DNA of 43,881 nucleotides from contig MHXZ01000079.1 of assembly GCA_001825665.1 (NCBI GenBank), positions 1 through 43,881 of the forward strand, in the 5' to 3' direction. This document shows positions 31,658-43,881 of this stretch, piece by piece; within the stretch, counting starts at the first letter, position 1; the number at the start of each line of letters is the position of its first letter. This DNA is from Planctomycetes bacterium GWF2_41_51 (GTDB taxonomy: Bacteria > Planctomycetota > Phycisphaerae > Sedimentisphaerales > UBA12454). Both the position numbers and the translations under genes were made by a program. A model generated the notes under the pieces. It had not been told where the DNA came from. It worked only from the letters and a program-made list of their open reading frames with translations, and made no database searches.

Positions 31658-32599
31658 TTACAGCCAGACAACTCCGGCATCGTCTTTTTTGATTTCGATA
31701 ATATCTTCTTCACTTAATCCTGAGGGGTATTGCAAAAACCTCATCTTACTAATGTCGTAGTATTTCCGCATACTTCGTTGTACATTCTTGATTAAACGCA
31801 CTACATAATCCGACCAGTTTTGCCTTATGCGGATATTCTTAATAGCAGCAGCTTCTACACGGTAGCCTTCGGCTTCAAGTGCCTGCTCTGTTAGTATTAG
31901 GCCTCTGCCTCGCGGATTGACGGCTTCGGCAAAGATTTCTTCAACGCCGCAGTCAACGGCAAATTTAACCAATTCATCGATTTGGGCAGGTGAATCCGCA
32001 ACCGAAGGTAAGATCGGACAGAACATTCCATAGGTTCGCAATCCTCGTTCGTGGGCTTGCCTAACGGTTTCCATTCGTTCTTCGATGCTGGATGCATTTG
32101 GTTCAATTATCTTGATGCGATTGCTCTTATCCGGCGTTGCTGTAATGCTTAAGCCAACAAGTACACGGTCGGAATGTTTTTCGATGAGGTCAAAATCATT
32201 TTTTACGGCAGCATTTTTGGTTAAAATGCGAACCGTCCAGTCAAGCTCTGAAAGAATCGCTTCCAGGCATTTTCTGCCAAGATCATGTTCCTGCGCTTCA
32301 GGCGACCACGCATCTACAGTTGTGCAGAGTTGAACCATCGCTCTTTTCCTGATCTTGCGGGCATCACGAGCCACCCGTTGAGGGGTGGTGGGATCGACAA
32401 TTGCGTAGCCATTATCAAATGCCGATAAGCCTAATTCTTTAAATGCGTGGTGGACTCTGAGCATTGCACCTGTCGAGCAGTATGTGCATGCGTGTCCGCA
32501 TTTGAGGCCAATATTGACAGCAAATTGAGCTAACCCTTTTTTCTCAAATTCTTTTGTTCGACTGATACCATTCTTCAATTCCCATTCGTAAGTTTTCAT
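31658..32599 (-). CDS. Radical SAM protein, spore photoproduct lyase-like (COG1533 type)
   Basis: This is a radical S-adenosylmethionine enzyme. The iron-sulfur motif is Cys34-x3-Cys38-x2-Cys41 (KCGHACTYC), inside an N-terminal FAVNIGLKCGHAC block like that of SplB/COG1533 proteins. Further family features are TTVDAWSPEAQ, the RILTKNAAVKNDFDLI strand and LVGLSITATPDKSNRI near residue 150. The ATG at 32599 is preferred over 32644: an AGGAGT ribosome-binding site lies just upstream. The gene is last in the leftward series of membrane/chaperone genes, 25 bp after the preceding one. The substrate is unknown; COG1533 proteins include DNA photoproduct lyase and uncharacterised members in mobile regions. 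Confidence 0.85.
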   Translation of the reverse strand: MKTYEWELKNGISRTKEFEKKGLAQFAVNIGLKCGHACTYCSTGAMLRVHHAFKELGLSAFDNGYAIVDPTTPQRVARDARKIRKRAMVQLCTTVDAWSPEAQEHDLGRKCLEAILSELDWTVRILTKNAAVKNDFDLIEKHSDRVLVGLSITATPDKSNRIKIIEPNASSIEERMETVRQAHERGLRTYGMFCPILPSVADSPAQIDELVKFAVDCGVEEIFAEAVNPRGRGLILTEQALEAEGYRVEAAAIKNIRIRQNWSDYVVRLIKNVQRSMRKYYDISKMRFLQYPSGLSEEDIIEIKKDDAGVVWL

Positions 32600-32624
32600 A
32601 ATTGTACTCCTATGATTTAAATGA

Positions 32625-33080
32625 TTATTTGACAACAATTTCACTTTTGACCTTCGTTATCTGGTTTTCTTTTCTCTGTTGATCTATTGCAATGGCCTTA
32701 TTTTTGTGACCATAAAATGGTCTGAAAAAGCTGCTTACACCATCGGCGAACATCGCAAGATTTGCGACTACGAGCAGCAGAAGAAAACTCATTCCCAACG
32801 CCAGATAAGGCAACAAGATGGTATGGAATGTGTCTTCCTGGTTTTGTGAAGGGAGATTCTGTTGCAAGACTCCTGTGGCACCAGGTGGACTTTCATGCTG
32901 CTGCGGGAAAAATTCCACTACCCCAACAATAAACAGCATTGCCACACAGAGGGCGATCATAAAGCTGCCAAACCCCGAAAAAGTGGAGTGCCGGTTCAGT
33001 GCGTTCCATGTTGCCATAAACACAACTCCCAGTAGCGGCAGAATGATTAACCAGCCGTAATTTTCAACATTTGCTAACAT
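32625..33080 (-). CDS. Three-segment membrane protein
   Basis: The 151-residue protein has hydrophobic segments at about residues 8-25, 38-57 and 87-112. A polar Gln/Pro-rich loop (about 60-85) and a charged, Lys-rich C-terminus follow. The topology suggests an integral inner-membrane protein with its basic tail in the cytoplasm. A GGATCGGATT ribosome-binding region precedes the ATG. It belongs to the leftward gene series that starts at the Hsp70 fragment, separated from the next membrane gene by 211 bp holding a TGCCCG ... CGGGCA inverted repeat (about 33,182-33,222). I do not recognise the family. Confidence 0.6.
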   Translation of the reverse strand: MLANVENYGWLIILPLLGVVFMATWNALNRHSTFSGFGSFMIALCVAMLFIVGVVEFFPQQHESPPGATGVLQQNLPSQNQEDTFHTILLPYLALGMSFLLLLVVANLAMFADGVSSFFRPFYGHKNKAIAIDQQRKENQITKVKSEIVVK

Positions 33081-35035: not shown

Positions 35036-36250
35036 TTAGTTGCTGTGCCTGGAAACAAGCTGGTTTCGTTGATCATTAATCTGACTGTCAGAAAGTCCTG
35101 TGTGGAATTTGAACCTAATAGGTACCGGCTTATTGAGTACCTTGTCGCGAACCTTGATGTCCACCATACCCTCAGTGTCCATAGTCACCTTAAACTCAAT
35201 ACGACCATGGTTTTCATCTCCACTTGTTGGCTGGACATCCACCTCAACTTGTTGCAGAGGAGTGAAGTTGCTGGATAACTCTCCCGGCATCCCATCGATC
35301 AATTTAACCTTCACTGTCATTTGTTGGGCATCAATGGGGCTAAAGCACTCGATAGCCTCAAAAGGAAGCTTCGCCCCGGAGGGAATGATAGGGCAATTGT
35401 ACTCTGTGTGATTATCAGCACTTTTTTTGGTAATCGCCGCAACACATAAATCTCTGCCTGCGATCATGCTTGGCTTAATCGAAGAAGCAAGGTAACGATA
35501 CTCTCCGATACTTAAAATGCTGTCTGGTTTACCAAAATACGCAGTGGCCAAGATGGCATTGCCTTTCGCCACAGCCATATCAGGATCGGTATCCGTTACG
35601 GGCTCTTTACCAAAGATTTCTTCCACGATCTCTGGAATAAACCGCAACCGGCTGCTGCCTCCCATCAAGATAATCCTGTCGATCTCAGAAGCATTCATCT
35701 CGGCCTTTTCAAGGGCTCTGCTGCAGCATTGCCGTAAGGTTTCGATGACAGGGGCAGCATCATCCTTGAGTTGGTCGTAGGTAATCTCCATCGAATGTCG
35801 ATGACTGCCAACTCTCAGATTGATAACCGCGGTGTCCTTATGTGCCAGTATTTCCTTGGCTTGTTTGCAGGCATCCAGAGCTTCCATCCATTCGGCCTGA
35901 TCTTTTTGAAGGTCAAGTTTATCCCCTTTGCTTTCGACAAACTTACGAACCCGCTGGAAGATGGCCTCATCGATATTGCTGCCGCCGCACTCAGAATCGC
36001 CATCGACGGCGATCTGTTCGATAGTTGCGTCAGCTTTTAATTGCAGGATACTGATGTCGAAGGTGCCGCCTCCAAAGTCGAATACAGCAATTTTCTGATC
36101 CAGCCCTTTGGAAAGGCCGTAAAAGGTCGCCCCTGCCGTTGGTTCGTCCACAATGTGTACCTTCTGGAAACCGGCGATGAGTCCGGCCTGCTTCGTCGCC
36201 AGTCTGGCCGGTCTCTTAAAGTAGGCTGGGACACTGATAGCCGAATATTG
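35036..36250 (-). pseudogene. Hsp70 (DnaK/HscC-like) with missing N-terminus
   Basis: The reading frame is Hsp70 from about its VPAYF motif onward: ISVPAYFKRPARLATKQAG and IVDEPTAGATFYGL (seen upstream of the GTG at 36151), then the phosphate-binding FDFGGGTFDISIL, ECGGSNIDEAI and ILMGGSSRLRFIP. A short substrate-binding beta domain follows; the helical lid is absent, as in HscC-like proteins. About the first 130 residues, including the first phosphate loop, are lost. Homology stops at about 36,247, where a stop codon is met and sequence of the rightward Res fragment begins. It could still be translated from the GTG at 36151, but would not fold as a working ATPase. Promoter and 5' end are therefore missing for the whole leftward operon. 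Confidence 0.85.
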
Positions 36251-36251
36251 T

Positions 36252-37982
36252 CAGGTCAATCGTCTGCCTATGGTGAAACCCTTTGTTTTGATTTCAACAA
36301 AAGATACAACTCACGCCGGCCAGATTAAAGCCTTCATCGAATCTGATAGTTTTTGTGAGGGAAGGTATGCTGGGAAAGTTATTGAAATCCATTCCGGCAC
36401 AAAGGGCGCTGAAAGCGATGAAAATGTAAGCCGGCTGCTTGCGGTCGAGCAGCCAACCAGTAATGTTGAAATCGTTATCCACGTTAATATGCTCAAAGAA
36501 GGCTGGGATGTAAAGAACCTTTACACCATTATTCCATTGAGAGCCTCGATTAGTGAAATATTGACTGAACAGACGATAGGACGAGGCTTGCGTTTGCCTT
36601 TTGATGGGAAAATAACCGGAGAATACGACCTCGATGCCCTTGAGATTATTTCTCACGATCAATATGCCAAATTGATACAAGAAGCAAAAGACAGTCCCAT
36701 TTTCAAATTTAAAGAGCTTAATGAAGATGACTTAAGGCCTGTCAAGACAGTTCCGGTAGCTCATAAGTTTATTGACTTAGATAATGTTCTGGACCGCATT
36801 TCCAAAGGAGGTAATGTTCTGTTTACATCGGAATTGACAAATGAGCAAAGGCTAAATGAAGTCGTGCAGGAAATTGTTGCCGAGGAAACTGCAAGGTATG
36901 AAATGATTACGAAGCTGGGTGCAGAATCAGAAGAAGTAAAGCAGGTTATAAAAGAACAGCCGACACTTTTTGAAGTTGCGGCTCCAACAGAAGCAGCAAA
37001 GAAATTTGATCCAGCCGTTCTGGAAGCGGATTTAAAAGATAGATTACGAAGATATGCCAGAGCAAGTATCGATGTGCCACACATTATCACCGAAACTTAC
37101 ACAGACAGAAAGCTGGAACCTTTTGATGTAAAAGTAAATATTGGTCCGTTCGAGTTGGTTGAGCAGCGAGTATTGACGCATGAGCTTGCCAGTGGTGAGG
37201 AAAGAATTGGCGAACAGCTTGATGTTATGGAAATTGAAAATCCAAGGGCTTTTCTGGCGGGCAGATTGATAGATACAATTGAAGAGTTGGATGTTGCAAA
37301 TGACAAAGAGGCTGTATTGGCTTTAGTGGATGGCTATATCTCTCAGATTGATAAGTCCGCAGATGATTTCAAAAAGATTACTCACCTTTATAGGGATGCG
37401 ATTATCAGAGACCTTAAAAATCAGGTCGAAAGCCATATACAGGATGAATCCAAAGTCGAAGCACAGGTTCGTAGCGGCTTTATAAAGTTCAGGCCTTATT
37501 CAAAAACCGTTCTTGAGAAAGACGGTATTGTGCCTTATACGCAGCAGGTGCCTCGTTCTGATGTGAAGCGTTATTTGTTTGAAGGTTTTGTGAAATCACT
37601 CTATCCACAAGTTACATTTGACTCTACGCCTGAGAAAGATTTCGCTGCAATCTTGGAGAAAGACCATGATGTGGTGAAGTGGATTCGTCCACCGGAGGGA
37701 AATATCCCAATTTTATATAAAGGGCGAAACTACAATCCGGACTTTATTGTTCAAACGAATATGACAAAATACATTATTGAAGTCAAGGCAAGAAATGAAC
37801 TTGAGCCTCAAATGAATCAGGAAGTAAAAGATAAAGCTATTGCGGCGATTCGCTGGTGTAAGCTCGCCTCAGATGTTGAAAAACAGTTTAAATGGGAATA
37901 CAAACTGATACCTGATGATATAATCAAGTCCGGCTATGACTTGAAATTTGTTCTCGGAAATTCAATAAATTGTGAACAGTAA
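36252..37982 (+). pseudogene. C-terminal half of a type III restriction Res subunit
   Basis: The open frame matches the second helicase lobe and nuclease of type III Res/DEAD-like restriction subunits: KPFVLISTKDTTHA, motif V VNMLKEGWDV, motif VI QTIGRGLRLP and, near the end, the PD-(D/E)xK nuclease signature NPDFIV ... IIEVKA. The first lobe with Walker A and DExx motifs, some 400-500 residues, is missing. In-frame codons continue upstream of the first ATG (36270) to about 36,252, where Hsp70 sequence on the other strand begins. The coding frame is otherwise intact for 570 codons. The ABC-3C gene follows 28 bp later on the same strand. Without the ATP-binding lobe it cannot be an active restriction enzyme. 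Confidence 0.85.
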
Positions 37983-38010: not shown

Positions 38011-39099
38011 ATGGCTAGTGATAATAAAGTTAATTCTAAGATGGAGCTTACAACAGAAAGCGTTGTAATGGGGCCGATAGTAAGCCCGGTGGATAGGATC
38101 AAACTTTACAGTCCGAATGAGTGGGAAGAATTCATAAAAGAATGGGCCGAATCCTTAAAATCTGATTATTACCATGTCGAACGATTAGGAGGAGCGGGTG
38201 ACATGGGGAGAGATATTGTGGCTTCCACCGGTGATCCAGCTACCTGCTGCCCCTGGGATAATTATCAATGTAAGCATTACGATCATAGTTTGATGCCTGG
38301 AGATATATGGGTAGAGCTCGGGAAATTATGTTATTACACCTTCATAAAAGAGTTCACTCTTCCGAGAAAATATTATTTTGTAGCTCCGCAAGGTATCGGA
38401 ACCAAACTGTACGATCTTTTAAGCAAACCAATAAAGATTAAGAAAGAGTTGATTTCTATTTGGGACAAAAAATGTAAGGATAAAATTGCCGCTAAGAATG
38501 AAATTCAATTAGATGGTAAATTTAAAGAATATGTTGAGGATTTTGACTTTAGTATTGTTTGGTATAAAAAAATTAGTGAAATTATAGAGCGGCATCGTAA
38601 AACAAATCTTCACATAGCTCGCTTTGGAGGAGGATTACCACTACGTCCGGCACCTGAATCTCCCCCCAGTAGTATCCAAAGCAAAGAAGTCAGATATGTA
38701 AGACAGCTTCTTGATGCCTATGGAGATGCTGCAAATACGCAGTATTCCAATCCAGATGAACTTAATTGTCACAAGACATATCGAAGTCATTTTGACCGTT
38801 CACGTGAAAGATTTTATTGTGCAGAATCACTACGTGTATTCTCAAATGATACACTTCCGCAGGGTGAATTTGATAAATTACAAGAGGAAATATATGATGG
38901 AGTTGTTGACATTGCCGAATCAAGTCATAGTAATGGATATGAAAGAGTTAAGGCTACAACAAATCAAGCAACAACAATTAATATTAACAGCCATCCCCTA
39001 AAAAGCTGTCTCAAAAATAATGACAAGAGTGGGATATGTCATCAATTGGCTAATAATAATAGACTTGTATGGGTGCCTCAAAATGACAAAAACAAGTAA
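38011..39099 (+). CDS. ABC-three-component (ABC-3C) system nuclease-type protein
   Basis: This 362-residue protein resembles the effector/C-terminal component of ABC-3C conflict systems. Residues about 30-130 look like a restriction-endonuclease fold, with RLGGAGDMGRDIV and NYQCKHYD giving an Asp ... Gln-x-Lys active-site pattern. The conserved ELGKLCYYTF, KYYFVAPQGIGTKLYDLL and ARFGGGLPLRP blocks follow, then RSRERFYCAESLRVFSNDTLP and the C-terminal GICHQLANNNRLVWVPQ. An AAGGAC ribosome-binding site lies before the ATG. It overlaps the middle-component gene by 17 bp, the typical ABC-3C arrangement, but the ABC ATPase is not present in the window. Likely antiphage or conflict role, probably inactive without its partners. 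Assignment is from memory of the family. Confidence 0.8.
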   Translation: MASDNKVNSKMELTTESVVMGPIVSPVDRIKLYSPNEWEEFIKEWAESLKSDYYHVERLGGAGDMGRDIVASTGDPATCCPWDNYQCKHYDHSLMPGDIWVELGKLCYYTFIKEFTLPRKYYFVAPQGIGTKLYDLLSKPIKIKKELISIWDKKCKDKIAAKNEIQLDGKFKEYVEDFDFSIVWYKKISEIIERHRKTNLHIARFGGGLPLRPAPESPPSSIQSKEVRYVRQLLDAYGDAANTQYSNPDELNCHKTYRSHFDRSRERFYCAESLRVFSNDTLPQGEFDKLQEEIYDGVVDIAESSHSNGYERVKATTNQATTININSHPLKSCLKNNDKSGICHQLANNNRLVWVPQNDKNK

Positions 39100-42048: not shown

Positions 42049-42594
42049 CTATTCTATTATTATTGAATATTGATAATTCACTGGATCATCAATTCCCTCT
42101 ATAATTAAATAATAATTTCCCGGAGATATTTCAGTATTAGATAATGTTAATCTTTTTGAGTCAAATGAGCCTTTAAGATAATAGTACTCCTTGCCTTCTT
42201 CATATCTATAGAATTCATTTTCTTGAAGAATCATTATATTGGCTGGATTATTTGTTGTCGCCAATAATTCAATATCTGCAAGACGATGAACTATAAATCC
42301 TTGAGAGATATATTCATCAGACTCCAAACTTCCCGTATTTGCAATAACAACTGGCTCAACTTGGCTTTGCATCATAGGGATTATTGCCGCCCAAAGAATT
42401 GTAATGCCTATAATAAAAATCCAAAACCCTCCAATAGCTACTCCTGCGATTGCCAAACCTCTTCCTTTCATTTTGCCATTCTTTGTGTGAGAAAGACCAA
42501 TTAGACTAAAAATAAATCCTAATATCCCCAAGATATACATGAAGCTTAAAACGAATCCTGCAATCGCCATACCGCTCCACTTTTTTTGGGCCAT
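42049..42594 (-). CDS. DUF4190-type membrane protein with extracytoplasmic domain
   Basis: The 181-residue protein opens with the DUF4190 pattern: WSGMAIAGFVLSF, a first membrane segment (about 8-35), a short KNGKMKGRGLAIAGVAIGG loop and a second membrane segment (about 44-75). The remaining 105 residues, rich in beta-branched residues and Asn, form an extracytoplasmic domain (LTLSNTEISPGNYYLIIEG near the end) of unknown family. The topology places both termini on opposite faces or the tail outside. No strong ribosome-binding site is visible before the ATG. Neighbours give no clear partner. DUF4190 itself has no established function. Confidence 0.75.
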   Translation of the reverse strand: MAQKKWSGMAIAGFVLSFMYILGILGFIFSLIGLSHTKNGKMKGRGLAIAGVAIGGFWIFIIGITILWAAIIPMMQSQVEPVVIANTGSLESDEYISQGFIVHRLADIELLATTNNPANIMILQENEFYRYEEGKEYYYLKGSFDSKRLTLSNTEISPGNYYLIIEGIDDPVNYQYSIIIE

Positions 42595-42937: not shown

Positions 42938-43288
42938 TCAATGAATAATAGTTTTGCACCATTGGATTTGGCCTTTTCTTACGTAAAAATGGCTTCTGCA
43001 TCCGATGGTTCTATTTATAGAGGGAAACAGGGTCACAGTTCTGTCGTTGTGAATTTCGATCTTCCAATTAGGCCGACTTTTTTGGTCAAGATTCATGTAT
43101 AGAATTTCACCACAACCGCATGGACAAACCATTGCAGTAAACCATAGGTACCCGCCTTCGCCAGCAATGTATATTTTGTTGGGATGGAGTTTGTCTGGCA
43201 CTTCTGTGACCTGCTCTGCTTTGAAGCGGGACTCCCCAAAGAAAACGCTTCTGAGAAACTTACCAATTTTCTGTAGATATCGCATCAT
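42938..43288 (-). CDS. DUF6527 protein (BubE-like) of a bacterial ubiquitination-like operon
   Basis: The 116-residue protein matches the DUF6527 pattern: a basic N-terminal stretch, LHPNKIYIAGEGGYLWFTAMVCPCGCGE (Cys55, Cys57, Cys59), then W-x-IEI, VTLFPSINRT near residue 88, and CRSHFYVRKGQIQWC (Cys97, Ser99, His100). DUF6527 proteins occur next to E1/E2-like genes; in the Bub systems they are called BubE and, as I recall, have been described as a serine-protease deubiquitinase-like enzyme. Clustered Cys and His could bind zinc. The start (43288, or the adjacent 43285) is 6 bp after the E1-like stop codon, so the two genes are one operon, with DUF6527 last. The family is recognised by eye, not by search. 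Confidence 0.8.
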   Translation of the reverse strand: MMRYLQKIGKFLRSVFFGESRFKAEQVTEVPDKLHPNKIYIAGEGGYLWFTAMVCPCGCGEILYMNLDQKSRPNWKIEIHNDRTVTLFPSINRTIGCRSHFYVRKGQIQWCKTIIH

Positions 43289-43294
43289 ATTCGC

Positions 43295-43881
43295 TTAATC
43301 ACTTAGAGTTGGCATATCCAAAAGAGGGGTTCTGTCGCCTTTACCAACATGCTTTGCGAGAACCACACATTTTTCAAAGTCGGACGAATAATAGATCCTG
43401 CTCTGCGTCAAGCTGCTGCCAAATTGGGCAAAGCGGTTATTATCATCGTCACGAAATTGATGAATTCGAGCAAGAAACTCGATGACGGCCATACTTGCAT
43501 AATGCATATTAATACTTATGACGGCAGGACTGTCAACATTTACGCCCTTGATATATTTTTCCTTGTATTGCTTTTCGTATAATGCAGGATTCGTACGCAT
43601 CATACCTTCGGCTTCAATGCCGTCGAGGGTAATTACATTTCGACTCAATAAACTCGATTTTCCAGACTGTAAATAGTTAACGCTTCCGCATATTTGGCTA
43701 ATATTTCCCTTGCCATCAGCTTCAAGCTTCACGCCAACATCGAAATAAGGTATTTGGTAATAGGTAGCAAGCCGATTTAATAGATGGTGTCCGTCCGGTG
43801 AAGCACCTCTTTTTTTGCGGTGGATAATCGCGATAATCGGCTCATGTTTATTGAAAGGATTTGAACATGAGCAAGCTAAAA
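43295..43881 (-). CDS. E1-like ThiF-family adenylyltransferase, C-terminal part, 5' end beyond window
   Basis: The gene enters from the right edge and 195 codons are visible. Typical E1/ThiF features are SPDGHHLLNRLATYYQIPYFDVGVKLEADG, in which an Asp-x-His loop precedes the LNxLA helix and the PYFDVGV strand. CGSVNYLQSG, VISINMHYASMAVIEFLARI and the terminal VGKGDRTPLLDMPTLS are also present; the last pattern is characteristic of E1-like proteins of bacterial ubiquitin-like operons. The nucleotide-binding GxGxxG and catalytic Cys regions must lie outside the window. A GTG at 43732 is an internal codon, not the start, because the homologous frame continues upstream without a stop. It would activate a small ubiquitin-like protein by adenylation. 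It is followed by DUF6527 in the same operon. Confidence 0.8.
   Translation of the reverse strand, partial: LACSCSNPFNKHEPIIAIIHRKKRGASPDGHHLLNRLATYYQIPYFDVGVKLEADGKGNISQICGSVNYLQSGKSSLLSRNVITLDGIEAEGMMRTNPALYEKQYKEKYIKGVNVDSPAVISINMHYASMAVIEFLARIHQFRDDDNNRFAQFGSSLTQSRIYYSSDFEKCVVLAKHVGKGDRTPLLDMPTLSD

Follow-up and report, generated by a model that had tools for sequence, protein, structure and literature searches.

Bub operons encode a ubiquitin-like protein (BubA), an E2-fold protein (BubB) and a JAB-E1 fusion (BubCD), and the closest solved relatives of the proteins described here are those of Citrobacter (PDB 9EA4, 9EA5, 9EA8, 9EAE and 9EAV). An operon of the same type was listed as row 6e by Iyer et al. 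(2006), with a polyUbl, an inactive cysteine-less E2/RWD-like protein, a JAB-E1 and a Zn-finger protein (PMC1779556). The latter is a small protein with the pattern C-x(3)-C-x(35-38)-H-x(2)-C, for which a role in target recognition was suggested as a possibility, the example being sll6052 of Synechocystis (PMC1779556). Judged by its sequence, this Zn-finger protein appears to correspond to DUF6527, and sll6052 is likely the DUF6527 gene that ends an operon on Synechocystis pSYSX (SGL_RS01630 to SGL_RS20235). There, a divergent ImmA/IrrE protease and an HTH gene are accompanied by genes for multiubiquitin, E2/UBC, ThiF and DUF6527. Regulators of this kind are common companions, as CapW or CapH+CapP has been linked to 219 of 544 Bub operons (PMC13373217). 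Repressor cleavage triggered by single-stranded DNA is known for CapH/CapP (PMC13373217, PMC10904395): CapP structurally resembles PprI/IrrE, and its cleavage of CapH is activated by ssDNA (PMC10904395). Anti-phage protection by Bub has had no demonstration, according to PMC13373217.

A planctomycete Bub operon on two contigs

The window analysed here (43,881 nucleotides) is the whole of contig C79 of the genome of Planctomycetes bacterium GWF2_41_51 (G000). A preliminary description had recognised, at its right edge, an E1/ThiF-like frame followed after 6 bp by a DUF6527 gene, had read this pair as the 3′ end of a Bub-type operon linked to a defence island, and had predicted E2 and ubiquitin-like genes just beyond the edge. 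The features of the operon in the window and on a second contig of the same genome, C62, are as follows.

42938-43288, minus strand: DUF6527 gene (116 aa; PF20137), the 3′-most gene of the Bub operon
43295-43786, minus strand: 3′ part of bubCD (JAB-E1 fusion), from tblastn matches to ThiF proteins, Citrobacter BubCD in the PDB and the in-phase join with C62
43779-43786, minus strand: 8-bp target-site duplication, reading CATCTATT on the minus strand; a second copy adjoins the IS end on C62
43787-43881, minus strand: terminus of an IS66-family element whose inverted repeat, in the inward direction, is GTGTCCGTCCGGTGA; a 93% identical copy lies on contig C22
C62:21617-21817: Multi_ubiq match within bubA, whose product has 110 aa (PF14452, E 4.9e-13)
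C62:21843-22229: E2 match within bubB, whose product has 133 aa (Prok-E2_E, PF14462, E 4.1e-38)
C62:22253-23146: match to the N-terminal part of the JAB-E1, 48% identical to residues 5-299 of the Prosthecobacter query; C62 holds the first 301 codons of bubCD

The open frame at 43295-43879 (minus strand) stops 6 bp upstream of the DUF6527 gene, while its other end runs off the window. Indeed, it contains the blocks LNRLA, PYFDVGV and GDRTPLLDMPTLS that had been named for it. The library search suggested for this frame gave no match in Pfam, NCBIfam or PADLOC when the frame was used alone, but in tblastn it aligned with the C-terminal ends of proteins annotated ‘ThiF family adenylyltransferase’ from 84 plasmids (top match on an Abditibacteriota plasmid, 56% identity, E 7e-50), and phmmer matched it to the solved Citrobacter BubCD in the PDB (E 5e-18). 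The E1 assignment was correct as far as position 43786. The native segment 43295-43786 encodes the last ∼164 residues of the E1 (adenylation) half of BubCD, whereas the frame opens with ∼31 codons that derive from the IS. The profile search proposed for 42938-43288 returned PF20137 with an E-value of 4.9e-23 (score 81 bits, the cut-off being 23.6), which bore out the second half of the pair.

Using the Prosthecobacter homologue (L005) as the query for a search of the own genome, we found the predicted upstream genes on C62, in the order Multi_ubiq, Prok-E2_E and JAB-E1 N-terminal part. The BubA protein has a single recognised Ubl domain, ends in ...DQTEG and thus in a glycine, and matches Citrobacter BubA in the PDB (E 1.6e-05). 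The BubB protein matches Citrobacter BubB in the PDB (E 1.3e-27); it is itself devoid of cysteine, and the 11 aligned E2 proteins have no conserved cysteine column. The C62 part of BubCD comprises Prok-JAB and ThiF domains with the JAMM motif HSHPSGYAEFSVTD, and it too matches the solved Citrobacter BubCD. Some homologous BubA proteins have short tails beyond EG, and the JAB half may trim such tails. In the crossover region of the E1, a cysteine within ICGSVNYL was considered as a catalytic candidate and rejected, since homologues do not conserve it.

A BubA with C-terminal glycine, an E2-fold BubB and a JAB-ThiF/E1 BubCD are thus all present by sequence, in line with the Bub reading of the preliminary description; an uninterrupted E1 gene, which bears on function and not on descent, is lacking in this genome. 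In contrast to the Citrobacter system, the locus resides in a planctomycete, has one recognised Ubl in BubA and has its bubCD broken by an IS66 element. Type 6e of Iyer et al. shares with it the Ubl, the inactive E2/RWD-like protein, the JAB-E1 and the small putative metal-binding protein, whose C-x3-C-x37 spacing fits C-x(3)-C-x(35-38). However, two or three Ubl repeats are usual in the published polyUbls, and the last ligand pair is printed as H-x(2)-C, whereas it is C-x2-H here. The Synechocystis genes stand in the same order as ours but are uninterrupted, and the DUF6527 proteins are only 26% identical. The operon type is therefore already known, and the locus is a new, disrupted example of it.

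Divergently from the bub genes, C62 carries a CapH-like HTH gene (HTH_3, E 1.7e-18) that overlaps, on the same strand, the gene for a CapP-like IrrE-type protease (Peptidase_M78). The protease matches the PADLOC capP model (E 2.3e-60) and the solved CapP (PDB 7T5T, E 9.3e-14). Hence an HTH repressor gene adjoins an M78/IrrE protease gene, as in CapH+CapP pairs; while those were characterised with CBASS, regulation of the present operon is predicted from the genes.

An IS66-family insertion within bubCD

Contig C79 stops inside an insertion element. Its stretch 43787-43874 recurs at C22:20576-20664 with 93% identity, where the copy adjoins a TnpA-like transposase HTH gene (HTH_Tnp_1 just below the curated cut-off) and the beginning of TnpB_IS66 (PF05717, partial, above cut-off). 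Since 43787-43881 recurs beside these genes, we conclude that C79 ends in an IS66-family element. The frame at 43295-43881 that had been assigned to E1 as a whole therefore consists of E1 up to 43786 and of an IS66 end from 43787 onward. Contig C62, in turn, ends 85 bp past the N-terminal part of the E1 (23146), inside the other IS66 end (GTAAGCGTCCGGTGA...). Its terminal sequence reads ...GGCATCTATT up to the IS boundary and GTAAGCGTCCGGTGA... beyond it, and the window side reads ...TCACCGGACGGACAC and CATCTATTAAATCGG..., respectively. The first 15 bases of the two IS ends agree at 12 of 15 positions, with a GTAAGCG end of the GTAAG type. Members of the IS66 family are expected to produce an 8-bp target duplication, and precisely such a duplication was found here together with the GTAAG-type end and TnpB_IS66.

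When the flanks were joined at one copy of CATCTATT, a single frame of 461 aa resulted, without stop or indel. The joined BubCD aligned with ten homologues across the join, where our sequence has CMDGSEGRHLLNRLATYY and that of Prosthecobacter CMDSASGRHVLNKLAATY. Accordingly, bubCD is interrupted after codon ∼301 of 461 by an IS66 element of which both ends are seen and the body between them is unassembled. The shared 8-bp duplication, the IS66-type ends, the continuous frame and the alignment across the join speak strongly for C62 and C79 being neighbours, apparently separated by one IS66 copy; the join is derived from the IS ends, the target site and the reading frame rather than from a spanning read. 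The genes expected just beyond the right edge thus exist upstream, but the IS66 insertion inside the E1 comes before them.

Further IS66 ends are located at C22:20576-21135 and C53:1-102. They were considered as the two sides of one IS66 copy, and this was dismissed on account of their different flanking 8-mers (GCCGATTT versus GTTTAATC). Because of this mismatch, it appears that the G000 assembly is broken either by three or more IS66 sites or by a rearrangement.

On the basis of gene content, gene order, family membership, the IS junctions, the repeated target site and the continuous frame, we are highly confident that the locus is a planctomycete Bub operon under predicted CapH-CapP control, bubA-bubB-bubCD-DUF6527, with bubCD split by an IS66-family insertion. 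Conceivably, C62 and C79 could instead stem from two distinct Bub operons, at two loci or in two organisms of the bin, with a separate IS66 copy interrupting each. The IS66 ends on C22 and C53 with their non-pairing flanks and the contamination estimate of 3.8% would be compatible with this idea. It nevertheless seems most improbable, as the 8-bp target duplications are identical (chance about 1.5e-5), the frame continues in phase, the two halves share no more than the duplicated bases and together make up one protein, the genome has a single Multi_ubiq match and a single strong match for either half, and tetranucleotide use is similar in the two contigs (r 0.95). It is hardly credible either that the locus represents a different ubiquitin-like pathway, for instance Bil or the CBASS kind named ‘E1-E2’ by PADLOC. 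The N-terminal part of BubCD does match PADLOC E1-E2 models (E 3.8e-12), but these matches span the generic adenylation domain only. Moreover, the E2 is encoded by a gene of its own, the closest proteins of known structure are those named BubA, BubB and BubCD, and no CD-NTase or cysteine-bearing E2 was seen in the operon on C62 and C79. The E2 of Bil systems has a catalytic cysteine, whereas the E2-like protein encoded here has none.

An unlikely but weightier alternative concerns the sampled population: bubCD may be intact in most cells and the Bub system functional in the lineage, the IS66 insertion being a minority or recent variant picked by the assembler. A recent or partial insertion fits with the preservation of both halves and the flanking genes, which are otherwise undecayed: the joined frame is free of stops and indels, and the key motifs are kept. 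Yet both contigs end inside the IS, and the assembly has no contig with an uninterrupted site. The assembly may be a mixture in which some cells are without the IS.

DUF6527, its distribution and the defence setting

In the DUF6527 protein the expected CPCGCG and CRSHF motifs were both found, and its Cys/His pattern is C55-x3-C59-x37-C97-x2-H100, with Cys/His near-invariant across homologues. Through these residues (C55-x3-C59 ... C97-x2-H100), DUF6527 is a putative zinc-binding protein. The predicted fold is mostly beta (mean pLDDT 77.7, from a shallow alignment of 5); Foldseek gave no match at E ≤ 0.001, and VIA-align none above Z 2.5. We therefore claim no fold assignment for a model that matched nothing convincing. 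Downstream on the same strand (42049-42594) lies a gene whose product is a small membrane protein; it begins like DUF4190 and resembles DUF1883 in its C-terminal part, with both matches below the Pfam cut-off.

DUF6527 occurs in 12 of the 392 genomes of the phylum. At six of the eight strong loci outside our genome, E2 and JAB-E1 genes lie directly upstream, five of these with a recognised BubA; DUF6791-ThiF proteins precede DUF6527 at two of the eight, and three weak loci have neither partner type. The position of DUF6527 behind a ThiF protein thus appears to be general, the position behind BubCD being the commoner case. The preliminary description had called the E1-DUF6527 pairing a hallmark of Bub operons. 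The link seems indeed typical of them, but not exclusive, because DUF6527 is also found behind DUF6791-ThiF proteins and alone. Among 40 close relatives searched, those of the same genus or family yielded nothing above the generic ThiF level, and two of the same order had more distant full-length JAB-E1-like proteins. As no close counterpart was present in the same-genus and same-family genomes searched, the operon belongs to the accessory genes here.

The genome contains two related loci. At C122:7949-8329 (L034) there is an orphan DUF6527 gene of the DUF6791-ThiF-associated kind (CCCGCG, CQSHYW) without an adjoining E1, and a site-specific-integrase-like gene lies nearby. A second JAB-E1-like protein is encoded at C57:5370-7217 (L016) with a cysteine-less Prok-E2_E-like partner; by eye, the radical SAM gene beside it is closely similar to one at 31658-32644 of the window.

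No DUF6527 relative was found in the phage record collection. In the viral contigs, a single DUF6527 sequence as query found no relative, and an alignment query found three. Two are solitary DUF6527 genes (L053:5548-6315, on a 151-kb contig, and L054:5887-6306, on a 121-kb contig) whose surroundings, up to 6 kb away, yielded no E1, E2 or Ubl. The third belongs to a complete Bub operon (L055:1533-6285, IMGVR_UViG_2684623039_000002) consisting of a Ubl-E2 fusion, a JAB-E1, DUF6527 and a divergent IrrE-like protease. Since this operon is flanked by Mu gpF-like and Mu I protease genes, it is cargo of a Mu-like (pro)phage.

Other defence-type genes across the window and C62 include those for LmuA, a type III restriction-like protein, a TOTE-type primase-helicase and AbiEi/AbiEii. 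The LmuA (Lamassu) gene at 38011-39099 of the window (PADLOC E 2.2e-128) carries an ABC-3C CTD6 domain, and no LmuB was recognised among its scanned neighbours. These defence-type genes fit the defence island and the defence link that had been proposed. The type III restriction-like gene is N-terminally truncated and starts with the helicase C-terminal part, and the Hsp70 gene matches its profile only from position 168. Around a spot of ∼120 bp (36151-36270 of the window), both genes appear without their N-termini, as if an insertion or recombination had taken place there.

Predicted state of the pathway and its implications

We infer all of the biochemistry and regulation, and likewise the loss of function, from the genes and junctions described above. 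In intact versions of the operon, DNA damage or infection would generate single-stranded DNA, by which CapP would be activated to cleave the CapH repressor. BubCD would then adenylate the C-terminal glycine of the ubiquitin-like BubA, which would be passed to target proteins with the assistance of BubB, an E2 fold without catalytic cysteine. The small putative zinc protein DUF6527 probably helps to recognise or position targets, and the JAB half of BubCD would trim or remove BubA. A bolder proposal, which we regard as very doubtful, is that DUF6527 acts as an E3-like substrate-recognition zinc component of Bub and that the solitary viral copies (L053 and L054) are phage decoys blocking or redirecting the pathway.

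In the present assembly, the Bub pathway is probably inactive. With the E1 interrupted behind residue ∼301 of its 461, BubA activation would be lost, and the pathway as a whole is predicted to be off because, in addition, the IS separates DUF6527 from its promoter.

Together, these findings confirm computationally what had been predicted from the bare sequence, as the E2 and Ubl genes expected upstream are present on another contig. It would probably be a mistake to annotate an active Bub pathway in this genome on the strength of the DUF6527 and E1 fragments. The operon is apparently being lost by insertion and is without close counterpart in the searched genus and family, in keeping with a mobile, dispensable defence or stress module.
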